A stretch of DNA of 64,000 nucleotides from Saprospiraceae bacterium (GTDB lineage Bacteria > Bacteroidota > Bacteroidia > Chitinophagales > Saprospiraceae): the NCBI GenBank assembly GCA_020628645.1, contig JAHDES010000019.1:1-64000 (forward strand). The letters run 5' to 3'. Below are positions 35,980-40,172 of the stretch, in pieces. The notes beneath the pieces were generated by a model. The model saw only the letters and a program-made list of their open reading frames with translations, had not been told where the DNA came from and ran no database searches. The translations under genes were made by a program, and so were the position numbers. Each line of letters starts with the position of its first letter. Within the stretch, counting starts at the first letter, position 1.

Positions 35980-36273
35980 ATGCAAAAATTTCTGTATGCC
36001 ATCGGACTTGTTATTCTTCTAGCTGGTTTTGTCTATCATCCTTCGACTATCGAAGTACATGAAAGAGTCCAAATCTATAATTTACCATCAGTAGGTGATC
36101 AAATCAAAAAAGGTCGTATCGCTGCTAGATTAAGCCAAAAAGCACTTGCAGATGCCGTAGGACTGAGTCTTTATAATGTACAAACCATCGAAAAAGGAAA
36201 AGCTGTACCGACTAGAGATATTATGCTTAAAATACAACAATTGCTCAAGATAGAAATCGTACTCGATGTATAA
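35980..36273 (+). CDS. XRE-family HTH protein with N-terminal membrane segment
   Basis: A 97-residue protein. A hydrophobic segment (about 4-20) is followed by a Cro/CI helix-turn-helix (about 38-92, with ARLSQKALADAVGLSLYNVQ and TIEKGKAVPTRDIMLKI). A DNA-binding domain tied to a membrane or signal segment is unusual. If a later start were used only the domain would remain, but no in-frame Met exists before the helices. The role is unknown. Confidence 0.75.
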   Translation: MQKFLYAIGLVILLAGFVYHPSTIEVHERVQIYNLPSVGDQIKKGRIAARLSQKALADAVGLSLYNVQTIEKGKAVPTRDIMLKIQQLLKIEIVLDV

Positions 36274-36595
36274 TTGAAAATAGTTCTTTGACTTTTTCAC
36301 GGGATTTGTCTAAGAACATTAAAAATAAAACTAAGTGCAAGAAGAGGAAGCTGTGCTTAAACCCGAGGGATGGAAGAGAGGATGCTTGTAGTTCTCATCC
36401 TACTTTTCTTTCCTTCAACCAAAAAACCAATGAACTAAGAACGAAAATTATTTACTTTCCTACGGTTTTCTCATAGTCTGTTTTTTGTGACCACCCCCCA
36501 AAGGTGGTCTTTTTTATTGATCTAATCTCAACAAAAAATCCATTTTTGCATTCTATTCGTAAGTGTGATAAATTTCTTCACCAAAAAAAATAATT
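36274..36595. other. Intergenic region with terminator and promoter
   Basis: No gene is supported. The stretch includes an imperfect stem AGGATG/CATCCT near 36378-36403 (within a 189-base frame without codon character), the terminator at 36489-36516 and a promoter-like TTG-N21-CATTTTTG (36517-36548) facing the YD-repeat gene. Confidence 0.6.
36489..36516 (+). terminator. Intrinsic terminator
   Basis: GACCACC (36489-36495) pairs with GGTGGTC (36503-36509), followed by a run of six T and ATT. Confidence 0.88.
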
Positions 36596-37249
36596 ATGTT
36601 AGTTAGTTTGCTTACTCTTTTGATGTTGTTTCAAATCGGAGATATTCATGACCCAAAAACAGAAGAAGAATTAAAAGTCTATGGATTAGAAAAATGTAGA
36701 ATAGTAGAAGGTATTAAAACGCGAAACGGAAAAAAAATCTATGCGACTACCAGTACTTACACTTATGATGGTCAAGGTCGAGAATTACGCTGGGAATATC
36801 GCTACGACGATGGCTCACTTTATTATGCCAATGAATCTGTTTACGATGATAATGGCAGACGTATAAAATATTTGCATTATAATAGCAATAACCAGTATGA
36901 TTCTTACTATCAATTTAGTTACAATCAACAAGGATATAAAAGCAGTACTAAACATTTCAATAAAGCTGGAAAACTCCAAGATCAGTGGTTGTATACCTTA
37001 GATCAAGAAGGCAAAATCATTCGTGAAGATCATAAAAATCCAGATGGCACACTTCGCACTTATTGGGAAATTTCATATAATGATAAGGATCAAGTGATTC
37101 GTAAAGACATTTACCTCCCTTCTGGAAAATTGTATAGTTATATGATTTCTACTTACAATGATGAAGGTTTAGAAGATAGTTTTGCAGAGTATCGTGCCGA
37201 TGGAAGTGAAAAGTTTTTATTAAACTTTACCTATGATTGTAAAGAGTAA
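36596..37249 (+). CDS. Secreted YD-repeat-like protein
   Basis: A 217-residue exported protein with a short signal peptide (MLVSLLTLLMLFQIGDIHD). The rest is about six units of 22-25 residues, each with a Tyr-rich strand, a YD or YN turn and a Gly (STYTYDGQGRELRWEYR, SVYDDNGRRIKYLHYN, SYNDKDQVIRKDIYL), resembling RHS/YD or MORN-like repeats that build a flat beta-sheet. It is too short for an RHS toxin and carries no toxin tip. Own promoter and terminator. Function unknown. Confidence 0.75.
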   Translation: MLVSLLTLLMLFQIGDIHDPKTEEELKVYGLEKCRIVEGIKTRNGKKIYATTSTYTYDGQGRELRWEYRYDDGSLYYANESVYDDNGRRIKYLHYNSNNQYDSYYQFSYNQQGYKSSTKHFNKAGKLQDQWLYTLDQEGKIIREDHKNPDGTLRTYWEISYNDKDQVIRKDIYLPSGKLYSYMISTYNDEGLEDSFAEYRADGSEKFLLNFTYDCKE

Positions 37250-37270
37250 TTTTTTATAAATCATTTTAAT

Positions 37271-37308
37271 AAAATCCCCTTTAGATTCTTGTATTTAAAG
37301 GGGGTTTT
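37271..37308 (+). terminator. Intrinsic terminator after the YD-repeat gene
   Basis: AAAATCCCCTTTA (37271-37283) pairs with TAAAGGGGGTTTT (37296-37308), one mismatch, then TATTTT. Confidence 0.9.
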
Positions 37309-37436
37309 TATTTTACATTACAGAATTAATAATGTATTTTTTTCTCTTTTTCAGTTAAAAAGAACATTTTTTTAGCATTTTTTTATTTTTTGGCATTCCT
37401 TTTGCAAAATACATAAGTAATTAAACAACATACACT

Positions 37437-37693
37437 TTGACGACTAAATCGTCAATCATAACCATTAGCCGAATAGTTCCCTTCCTATTCTCAATAGCAT
37501 TAAACTTCTCGAACAAACTCATGCAGTAAGAATACTCTGAACGTGTAACGTTCTTCCGATATGCGTATTCATTCCTTTTAGAATGATTATGCTATTAAAC
37601 ACACTAGAAACACACTGATATTTACATATTACTGAGAAAACTGGTAAATATTCACCCTGTCCCGAGCCCTGAACAAGCTCGGGATATTTTTTT
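37437..37693 (+). ncRNA. Candidate structured RNA with intrinsic terminator
   Basis: No reading frame fits here. On the plus strand six hairpins follow each other: TTGACGA/TCGTCAA (37437-37455), GAATAG/CTATTC (37471-37490), GAACGT/ACGTTC (37539-37553), a long stem with one G-U pair and one mismatch (37563-37592), ATATTTAC/GTAAATAT (37618-37651), and TCCCGAGC/GCTCGGGA followed by seven T (37660-37693). The last is a textbook terminator. The region is about 260 bases, the size of a small RNA, between two genes on the same strand. It is not recognisably 6S, RNase P or tmRNA. Confidence 0.5.
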
Positions 37694-37865
37694 GGAGTCG
37701 TCGCACGACTAATTCTTCTAATTCAAAAACTCTTCTTCCACTATATTCTCTTCAGGAAGTCGTGCAACGACTTAAAGAATCCTCTCCCTTTTTACATTAA
37801 CATTCTCTTCATAAACCCCATATTCATTTTTATCGTTATATTGCTAGAAATAAACATTTTTTGAA
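37694..37865. other. Intergenic region upstream of the acyl-CoA oxidase-like gene
   Basis: This stretch holds the AGTCGT hairpin pair and then T-rich sequence with no clear promoter box. No gene is visible. Confidence 0.55.
37696..37773. repeat. Inverted pair of AGTCGTnGCACGACT hairpins
   Basis: AGTCGTCGCACGACT (37696-37710) and AAGTCGTGCAACGACTT (37757-37773) are each self-complementary and are inverted near copies of each other. A related pair occurs at 55529-55607. The bases between are unrelated in the two places. Confidence 0.8.
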
Positions 37866-40172
37866 ATGGCAATTACAATTCCTTCTTCTTCTACCTTCTC
37901 CCCTACTGTGATGAGTTTGATTCCCCTTTTTTATATCGGTTGGGCAGATAATTTATTAAGTCCTTCTGAAATAAAAACCATTCATCAAGGCTTATCAAAA
38001 TTCCCTAATCTTAATACAGCAGATCGAAAATTACTAGATCAATGGTGTAATCCTGCAAAGCCCCCCACCGCTCAATTATACAAACAATGGAAAAATTTAT
38101 TAAAAAATGCTGCACAACAATCTACGGATTCGCACAAAAAAAATTGGCTAGAGTTAGGAATTGAAATGGCAAAACTCCAATCCTCCAATTCGCCTGATAC
38201 CGAAAATGCGCTCAGAGAATTATATGAAACGATTGGACTAAATGAAACCAGCATCCCTGATTCTTTATATTCGAAATCTCAACGCCAACAATTCGAAGAA
38301 GAAGAGACTTCTTCCTTTTCTGTCCCTAAAATGAAAAGCATCCTAGATGATGAGTATGAAGAATTACGCGATCAAATGCGAACCTTACTTTCCGATCCTG
38401 TTTTACATGCTGATCCTGAAGCCATTCGCACCAAAGCCGATTATAGAGAAAAAGTATTAGAATGGTGTCAATTATTGGCAGATCAAGGCTTGGGAGCTTT
38501 ATCTTATCCACATGCTAATGGAGGAAAAGATGATATGGGTTCTTATGCTACTGTTTTTGAAATGCTAGGCTATCATGATTTGAGTTTAACGGTCAAATTT
38601 GGCGTTCAATTTGGCTTATTTGGTGGAAGTGTGCTTTTTTTAGGCACCGAAAAACATCATAAAAAATACCTTACGGATACAGGTAGTTTAAAATTAGCTG
38701 GTTGTTTTGCCATGACCGAAACGAATCATGGTTCTAATGTTCGAGAATTACAAACCACTGCCACTTATGATCCATCTACAGATGAGATTATCATTCATAC
38801 GCCTACCGAACACGATAGTAAAGAATACATTGGTAATGCTTTACATAGTAAAATAGCCTCTGTTTTTGCTCAATTAATTGTTAATGGGGAACAACATGGC
38901 GTTCATACTATTCTAGTCCCTTTAAGAAATGAAAAGCACCAATTATTAGAAGGCATCCGAGTAGAAGATAATGGGTATAAACTGGGTTTAAATGGTGTAG
39001 ACAATGGTAAAATCTGGTTTAATCAAGTCCGTGTCCCTAGAGCAAACTTATTGGATCGTTACGGAGCGATTTCTGATCAAGGAGTGTATACCAGTCCCAT
39101 CGAAAATGCAGGAAAACGATTCTTTACCATGTTGGGGACTTTAGTGGGTGGACGTGTATGTGTGCCGCGCGCAGGATTAAGTGCTGCCAAAACAGCATTG
39201 ACAATTGCCATAAAATATGCCACTCAACGACGACAATTTGCTCCTTCCCCTAATGAAAAAGAAACCTTATTATTGGATTATCCAACCCATCAGATGCGTT
39301 TAATTCCGCGTTTGGCAAAAGCTTACGCGCTAGATTTTGCCTTATCTTACTTAGGAAAACGCTTTGCCAATCGTTCGGAAGCTGATATTCGAGAAATAGA
39401 AACACTAGCGGCTGGATTAAAATCATATGCTACTTGGTTTACGTCAGATACCATACAAGAATGTCGAGAAGCTTGTGGAGGAAAAGGTTATTTACACGAA
39501 AATCGTTTTGCTGATTTAAAAGCGGATGCTGATATATTTACCACTTTTGAAGGAGATAATACCGTTTTACTTCAATTAGTTGCGAAAGGATTATTATCTG
39601 ATTTTAAAAAGGAATTTCATGACGAAGGTTATCGAGCCGTTTTAAGATACATTTCATCTCAAATGGGAGATACGATCACTTCTTACAACCCCGTTTTTAA
39701 ACGAAATACAGAGCGATCTCATCTCTTAGATGCCGAATTTCATTTAGATGCTTTTAGATATCGAGAACGACAACTCTTATACGAAGTCAGTAACAGCATT
39801 CGAGATTATATCAAAAAACAATTTCCAGCGTACGAAGCTTTCTTGAAGGTACAAAATGAAATTATTGCTTTAGCATTAGCTTATGTAGAACGAATTGTCT
39901 TAGAACAATTTCTAGAAGGTTTGAAAACGGTAAAAGATGATCCTTGTCAAAAAATACTCACTAAATTATTCCAACTTTATGCTTTATCTACGATTCATGA
40001 GCATCGTGGCTGGTATTTAGAAAATGACTACATGAATGGTTCGAAATCAAAAGCTATTCGCCAACAAATTTATAATTTATGCGGTGATATTCGTCCTCAT
40101 GTCAAAGATTTAGTAAATGCTTTTGCTATTCCAGATGCGCTTTTAAAAGCACCGATTGCAATGAGCATGTAA
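37866..40172 (+). CDS. Acyl-CoA oxidase/dehydrogenase-like flavoenzyme
   Basis: A 768-residue enzyme that oxidises acyl-CoA to the trans-2-enoyl-CoA, using FAD. After an N-terminal domain of about 150 residues comes the flavin-binding fold: CFAMTETNHGSNVRELQTTA (about 280-300), RRQFAPSP (near 457), and the C-terminal TFEGDNTVLLQ with the catalytic-base Glu. The long N- and C-terminal parts match peroxisomal-type acyl-CoA oxidases better than 380-residue dehydrogenases. Whether it passes electrons to oxygen or to ETF cannot be told. Single gene. Confidence 0.85.
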   Translation: MAITIPSSSTFSPTVMSLIPLFYIGWADNLLSPSEIKTIHQGLSKFPNLNTADRKLLDQWCNPAKPPTAQLYKQWKNLLKNAAQQSTDSHKKNWLELGIEMAKLQSSNSPDTENALRELYETIGLNETSIPDSLYSKSQRQQFEEEETSSFSVPKMKSILDDEYEELRDQMRTLLSDPVLHADPEAIRTKADYREKVLEWCQLLADQGLGALSYPHANGGKDDMGSYATVFEMLGYHDLSLTVKFGVQFGLFGGSVLFLGTEKHHKKYLTDTGSLKLAGCFAMTETNHGSNVRELQTTATYDPSTDEIIIHTPTEHDSKEYIGNALHSKIASVFAQLIVNGEQHGVHTILVPLRNEKHQLLEGIRVEDNGYKLGLNGVDNGKIWFNQVRVPRANLLDRYGAISDQGVYTSPIENAGKRFFTMLGTLVGGRVCVPRAGLSAAKTALTIAIKYATQRRQFAPSPNEKETLLLDYPTHQMRLIPRLAKAYALDFALSYLGKRFANRSEADIREIETLAAGLKSYATWFTSDTIQECREACGGKGYLHENRFADLKADADIFTTFEGDNTVLLQLVAKGLLSDFKKEFHDEGYRAVLRYISSQMGDTITSYNPVFKRNTERSHLLDAEFHLDAFRYRERQLLYEVSNSIRDYIKKQFPAYEAFLKVQNEIIALALAYVERIVLEQFLEGLKTVKDDPCQKILTKLFQLYALSTIHEHRGWYLENDYMNGSKSKAIRQQIYNLCGDIRPHVKDLVNAFAIPDALLKAPIAMSM

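Follow-up and report, generated by a model that had tools for sequence, protein, structure and literature searches.

A conserved RNA gene of Saprospiraceae with a sigma-54-type promoter and a box antisense to a multi-copy small-RNA family: a candidate sponge RNA

Background

Decoy RNAs whose transcription depends on sigma-54 are known from proteobacteria, where GlmY titrates RapZ and CrcZ titrates Hfq/Crc. The -24/-12 promoter element of sigma-54 has the spacing GG-N10-GC. Small RNAs (sRNAs) can themselves be the targets of a sponge: QrrX of Vibrio cholerae is a sponge RNA of the sRNAs Qrr1-4, and its activator is the LysR-type protein QrrT (PMC9732341). RNA regulation has been little described in Bacteroidota outside Bacteroides and Flavobacterium. 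In Bacteroides thetaiotaomicron, FopS is a group of 14 paralogous sRNAs of ~65-70 nt (PMC11697453), and no sponge of FopS is named in the sections of that article that serve as our source. In Flavobacterium psychrophilum, promoters of the same -24/-12 type have been mapped; the putative regulatory RNA Rfp36 has a sigma-54 (SM4) promoter, and a putative muramidase appears in the same regulon table (PMC9723704).

Here we analysed a locus in a 64,000-nt stretch of Saprospiraceae DNA (the window), where an earlier note had seen six successive hairpins ending in an intrinsic terminator and had proposed a new structured RNA, possibly a small RNA or an attenuated leader of the next gene. Computation places a conserved RNA gene at this site, with a promoter motif, a short box and complementarity of this box to a multi-copy sRNA family, A1. 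As far as sequence can show, the locus is a real, conserved and so far undescribed RNA gene. The literature searched, with subscription papers and preprints mostly outside it, had no report of this RNA or of the A family, nor of any Bacteroidota sponge that acts on sRNAs.

The RNA gene and its surroundings in the window

The locus lies on the plus strand of contig C80 of a 6.18-Mb genome (G000). Upstream of it on the same strand are a glucosaminidase gene (PF01832, 34918..35799), which is the syntenic marker of the RNA, a gene for a small helix-turn-helix protein (PF01381, 35980..36273) and a gene for a 217-aa protein (36596..37249) that has no Pfam match and is absent from both other genomes of the genus. 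The terminator that had been assigned to the upstream plus-strand gene was recovered at 37271..37308. An acyl-CoA oxidase gene (PF01756, PF22924; 37866..40172, plus strand) follows the RNA, with a long inverted repeat (AGTCGTCGCACGACT ... AAGTCGTGCAACGACTT, 37696-37774) between the two; a palindrome like this repeat, GACGACTAAATCGTC, opens the RNA.

Just upstream of the hairpins, a promoter at 37390-37406 has the GG-N10-GC spacing of sigma-54. The whole -24/-12 element, TTTTTGGCATTCCTTTTGCAAAA, occupies 37387..37409 on the plus strand, with GG at 37392-37393 and GC at 37404-37405, and the predicted +1 is at about 37417. The row of hairpins is closed, as reported, by an intrinsic terminator (37660..37691, plus strand) with an 8-bp CCCGAGC/GCTCGGG stem and seven T. 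From the promoter/terminator spacing, the syntenic relatives and the absence of any plus-strand ORF of more than 30 aa in the region (the longest, of 30 aa, starts from TTG), we predict a non-coding RNA of 275 nt at 37417..37691. The suggestion of a separate second transcript gains from this promoter and terminator of its own, from positional conservation in ~9 genera and from the same lack of an ORF, and a non-coding transcript at the locus is a well-supported prediction.

The number of perfect stems of 6 bp or more in the predicted transcript 37417-37691 is exactly six; in 100 dinucleotide-shuffled versions of it the count averaged 1.02 and never exceeded 3, so that the six successive hairpins stand up to the shuffled-sequence control. 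The stems at 37437-37455 (7 bp), 37471-37490, 37539-37553 and 37569-37586 (6 bp each, the last being the core of a longer imperfect stem) lie in a variable body (37437..37596, its last hairpin at about 37559-37596) that is unconserved among relatives. They are followed by an 8-bp AU-rich stem (ATATTTAC/GTAAATAT, 37618-37651), whose large loop presents the antisense box and which is no general feature of the relatives, and by the 8-bp terminator stem (37660-37684). The folding energy of 37420-37695 has a z-score of -4.5, with none of 200 shuffles as stable, and the fold without the terminator has a z-score of -3.0. Since the minus strand folds almost as well (z = -4.2, over a longer stretch), the hairpins alone are silent on which strand is transcribed, and the evidence for plus-strand transcription comes from the sigma-54-type promoter, from the box shared with relatives and from the run of T.

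The Rfam search that the earlier note had advised gave no match at the gathering cut-off in the whole window, 6S RNA included, and a permissive search of 37200-37870 returned sub-threshold matches only. The best of these, NsiR1 at 37642-37692 (23.2 bits versus a cut-off of 39), covers the terminator hairpin and was taken as chance. The idea of a tmRNA was dropped after ARAGORN detected neither tmRNA nor tRNA anywhere in the window.

Relatives of the locus in Saprospiraceae

When the DNA of the region was searched for in 60 relatives, nothing convincing came up (5 of the 60 were tallied with a match), and four short matches besides the window itself, with E values of 4.5e-4 to 9.7e-4, were taken as chance. 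The end motif GAGAAAAC...ACC followed by a terminator recurs in G002 and G018, where it precedes the acyl-CoA oxidase gene, and in G001, where its neighbour is the glucosaminidase gene. Through glucosaminidase synteny, a pattern scan of genome contigs and a sequence model (R1), 17 loci were assembled, and all counts use these same 17. Arranged by genus group, they are G000 (the window), G001 and G002; G018, G147 and G434; G060, G161, L129 and L138; G093 and L122; with G074, G115, G132, G098 and G119 as the remaining ones. Going by the genus labels used in the search, they come from about 9 genera, a count which assumes that the MAG records L122, L129 and L138 share the genera of G093 and G060, which they resemble.

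The pattern GAGAAAACNNGNAAANATTCACC, with 2 mismatches allowed, matched 21 of 150 genomes, its reversed control also having many matches; exact matches were restricted to G000 and G001. The contig scan returned 22 records, 13 of which look like chance. Among the 9 from Saprospiraceae, L140, L141, L126 and L127 were already in the sample, L122, L129 and L138 were added, and L120 and L130, with a box but without promoter or terminator, were left out. R1 matched 56 of 199 genomes at E <= 0.05; 11 with E <= 1.1e-6 were accepted, as was the syntenic G119 (E 3.5e-4). G402 looks the same as L122 and was not counted separately, and the weaker R1 matches L154, L156 and L159 turned out on inspection not to be family members. 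Synteny contributed G074, G115 and G132, and G084 and G102 were left out for a degenerate promoter or the lack of a box. The window site is the only one that a search with the box found in its own genome. Plasmids had no box match, and two box matches in viral contigs, both in apparent coding sequence, were rejected.

Wherever the contig allows the check, the RNA is near the glucosaminidase gene, even with a different downstream gene; G098, with none in the nearby sequence covered, is the exception. The parts kept in the family are the promoter (13 of 17 loci), a short box before the terminator and, at the same relative place, the terminator. Conservation in relatives thus holds for the locus and for these parts, but not for the hairpin body. 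At loci with a recognisable promoter, the predicted transcripts measure 133 to 533 nt. The bodies vary among the relatives in length as well as in sequence and folding, and they cannot be aligned. The transcript in the window is predicted to be non-coding, with its own promoter and terminator. In G074, a small helix-turn-helix protein like that of 35980-36273 in the window is encoded between promoter and box, that is, inside the sigma-54 transcript, so that the RNA of G074 would be an mRNA that carries the box in the 3' portion.

The promoter motif was sought as GGCA-N8-GC within 600 bases before the box; 13 of 17 loci have it in this loose form, for which shuffles expect 0.34, and 13 likewise in a stricter form, for which 0.01 are expected. 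The GG-N10-GC core stands within TTGGCAY-N5-TTGCW in 13 loci, and the motif is kept in 7 of the about 9 genera; no recognisable sigma-54 motif is present in four loci, namely the three of genus g17 and G132. At the same place as the window promoter, G001 and G002 have TTTTTGGCATNNNTTTTGCAAAA. The exact TTGGCAYNNNNNTTGCW occurs in 6 copies in the 6.18-Mb genome, versus 0 for the reversed-pattern control, and rpoN is present in all 25 genomes searched. By eye, no conserved upstream enhancer site was noticed. One copy of TTGGCAYNNNNNTTGCW is located 394 bp before the rpoN start (L178:1501-1517, reverse complement), and a sigma-54-type promoter at this place suggests autoregulation of sigma-54.

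The box has the consensus (A)ACAUAC-N-GAGAAAAC. In the conserved 3' end, a few bases separate (A)ACAUAC from GAGAAAAC; next comes GAACAAACAYYACC, which reads NNGUAAANAUUCACC in the genus of the window, and last the terminator. In the window, the box is ACATATTACTGAGAAAACT at 37623..37643, and the most conserved DNA of the family, GAGAAAACNNGTAAANATTCACC (in other genera GAGAAAACGAACAAACAYYACC), is at 37634..37656, both on the plus strand.

The A1 and A2 small RNAs

Some 900 bases upstream of the RNA in the window, 3' of the glucosaminidase and helix-turn-helix genes, is a second conserved element, termed A2 (GGTTTTCTCATAGTCTGTTTT, 36464..36515, plus strand), a variant of the A family with its own terminator and no clear promoter of its own. 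Of the 120 family genomes searched with model R2, built on A2-like elements, 58 have a match (E <= 0.01); the A-family loci are window 36464-36515, L180-L209 and L211-L222. Both R1 and R2 are sequence-only models, because RNAalifold gave no pairs in either 3' alignment (stems out of register). A2 is doubled in several genera (CTCTCATAGCGGTTCTCTCATAGTCTG; L050, L055, L152 and L209).

A1 is the larger family; an array has 2-4 of its genes, at distances of some 150-500 bp. Each gene is ~70 nt long: after the nearly invariant AGTTTTCTCATAGTATGTTT and a short spacer come a hairpin and finally a T-run. The invariant 5' core is GUUUUCUCAUAGUAUGUUU. Just before this core is a sigma-A-like -7 box (TATCTTTG, TATCTTG and alike), from which the A1 promoters are predicted. 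The genome of the window has three A1 copies as a tandem array in contig C3, and in these the core is predicted to be 78-94% unpaired. Flanking genes differ among the A loci inspected, and six loci with A1 arrays had no Rfam match. Among the RNA-bearing genomes of the A-model search, 9 of 10 have A1 array copies and G074 has only A2, a co-occurrence that is confounded by descent because 58 of 120 genomes have an A match. By these matches and their anatomy, A1 and A2 are a widespread, undescribed family of predicted multi-copy small RNAs. On an IMG/VR viral contig, an A1-like AAGTTTTCTCATAGTATGTTTT followed by an inverted repeat is present at L225:500-600 (minus strand), apparently just after the stop codon of a gene.

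Complementarity between the box and A1

Each half of the A1 core has an antisense counterpart in the box: GAGAAAAC is complementary to GUUUUCUC, and AAACAUAC to GUAUGUUU, the two paired parts being separated by a small loop or bulge. In the window, the duplex with the A1 core has 18 bp with one bulge and one G-U pair, at -19.4 kcal/mol. Over the full transcript, the best duplex with the A1 core is the box in 15 of 17 loci. In a transcript-shuffle test, at most 5 of 200 shuffles pair as well in 14 of 17 loci, and the test failed for G147 (9/200), G119 (71) and G434 (47). A core-shuffle test with one locus per genus (9 loci) gave a mean of -15.96 kcal/mol for A1 versus -7.03 (sd 1.35) for shuffled cores, none of 1000 shuffled cores being as good as A1, and the reversed-core control gave -6.4. 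Net of the cost of opening the box, -6.9 to -17.9 kcal/mol are left in the 15 loci with the duplex on the box. In several cases where the box departs from the consensus (G018, G161, G093, G098 and the window), it still pairs through G-U. The near-invariance of the A1 core leaves no two-sided covariation to be examined. One mark of a sponge, a conserved antisense match to the region with which another family of sRNAs pairs, is found in 15 of 17 loci, G119 and G434 being the exceptions.

The neighbouring A2 variant was rejected as the partner of the box: in most loci the box fits A1 better, and no compensating changes were seen, A2 being GUUCUCUC in genera where the box remains GAGAAAAC. In the window, the best duplex with the A2 variant also covers the box (-23.5).

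Proposed function and alternative explanations

A regulated promoter, a disposable body and a single conserved antisense box versus a multi-copy sRNA together lead us to consider it reasonably probable that the region is a trans-acting sRNA gene of ~275 nt, whose product would act as a sigma-54-controlled sponge (decoy) of the A1 sRNAs. An enhancer-binding activator would switch on RNA polymerase with sigma-54 at 37390-37406, and transcription would end at the terminator at 37660-37691. The body of the RNA would be a fast-evolving spacer, folded into hairpins in the window, and the working part would be the box (37623-37643), which could form about 16-18 bp with the mostly unpaired 5' core of A1. 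Pairing in the cell would sequester or destabilise the A1 sRNAs, and if A1 are regulators and titration is the consequence, their loss would relieve putative A1 target mRNAs. Such sponging would demand that the amount of the RNA match or exceed that of A1. The wider proposal, to which we give even chances, is a two-part Saprospiraceae circuit, new to Rfam and to the literature searched, in which ~70-nt sRNAs, encoded in a conserved tandem array with housekeeping-type promoters and sharing a 20-nt core that is close to invariant, are joined by a sigma-54-switched antisense sponge.

If this is true, sigma-54 would switch a whole post-transcriptional regulon, sigma-54 signalling would be tied to post-transcriptional control through a family-wide multi-copy sRNA, and the RNA would be the first sRNA sponge described in Bacteroidota, as far as the literature was searched. 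The promoter, the box and the A1 core are supplied as testable sequences. The locus also illustrates that a fast-evolving RNA gene can be recognised by synteny of promoter, box and terminator where sequence and structure searches fail.

Among the other explanations, one that we hold to be unlikely but still serious is a sigma-54-dependent base-pairing sRNA that uses its 3' box (GAGAAAAC...ACAAACAYUYACC) as a seed for mRNAs, the match to A1 being secondary or A1 itself sponging the RNA. The conserved stretch does extend past the A1-complementary part. Against the sponge, G119 and G434 have kept the locus and the 3' half ACAAACAYUUAYC, a part for which A1 accounts poorly, and have lost the complementarity to A1; the box may therefore serve some other or some further function. 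Sigma-54-driven regulatory RNAs are known in Bacteroidota, an example being the putative Rfp36 of F. psychrophilum (PMC9723704). Box-like sites without a sigma-54 promoter or terminator are present in other transcripts, at L120:1622-1649 (the end of secE before nusG) and at L130:45-74 (minus strand, near the start of another ORF), and would suit mRNA targeting as well; these sites are possibly A1 targets or chance. An mRNA seed does not account for a complementarity to A1 that is far beyond chance.

The earlier idea of an attenuated leader, in which transcription from the sigma-54 promoter would pass 37660-37691 and enter the acyl-CoA oxidase gene only if A1 or another signal allowed it, now appears improbable. 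In its favour, this gene comes next and reads in the direction of the RNA at 15 of the 17 loci. But attenuation is weakened by the other two: in G001 a distance of 30 kb separates the RNA from the oxidase gene and the genes that come after the RNA are all convergent, and G098 has no oxidase gene within the 0.6 kb of downstream sequence covered. In the window itself, about 175 bp and another inverted repeat separate the terminator from the start codon. As a general function the leader is largely refuted.

That the hairpin row itself is a conserved new structured RNA (6S-like, a riboswitch or a ribozyme) seems to us very improbable. The fold is strong in the window (z -4.5), in G093 and in L122, but G018, G115, G132 and G434 have no unusually stable fold, and the z-score of the body varies from +1.0 to -4.8 over the 17 relatives. 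The stems seen in the window are not common to relatives, the bodies are not alignable, there is no Rfam match, and RNAalifold on 11 aligned 3' ends gave 0 pairs, with the terminator stems not aligned in register; a shared covarying secondary structure was not found. Equally hard to believe is a locus of promoter-like and terminator-like sequences in decaying intergenic DNA with no functional RNA, since rapid divergence of the body, which would suit it, is accompanied by a promoter, a box and a terminator that about 9 genera have retained in the same order and at the same syntenic position.

Comparison with known systems

The proposed sponge of A1 shares with GlmY and CrcZ that a sigma-54-switched RNA would act by titration, but the titrated partners of those RNAs are proteins, whereas here they would be sRNAs. 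With Rfp36 it shares a sigma-54-type promoter before a regulatory RNA in the same phylum (PMC9723704). A1, for its part, resembles FopS (PMC11697453): both are multi-copy and about 70 nt long, with a conserved 5' pairing region of about 20 nt and a housekeeping Bacteroidota promoter (predicted in A1), and a member-like element is also found on a phage contig (L225 here). Unlike FopS, A1 is arranged in tandem arrays of 2-4, and the likeness described here is one of anatomy.

The closest described case is QrrX. QrrX is activated by QrrT, whereas the predicted control here is by sigma-54, and our locus belongs to another phylum, has other sequences and is known from sequence alone. QrrX likewise is a non-coding RNA made for this one purpose from a regulated promoter of its own (PMC9732341), and it base-pairs with the conserved region through which all members of a multi-copy sRNA family pair, as the RNA described here is predicted to do.
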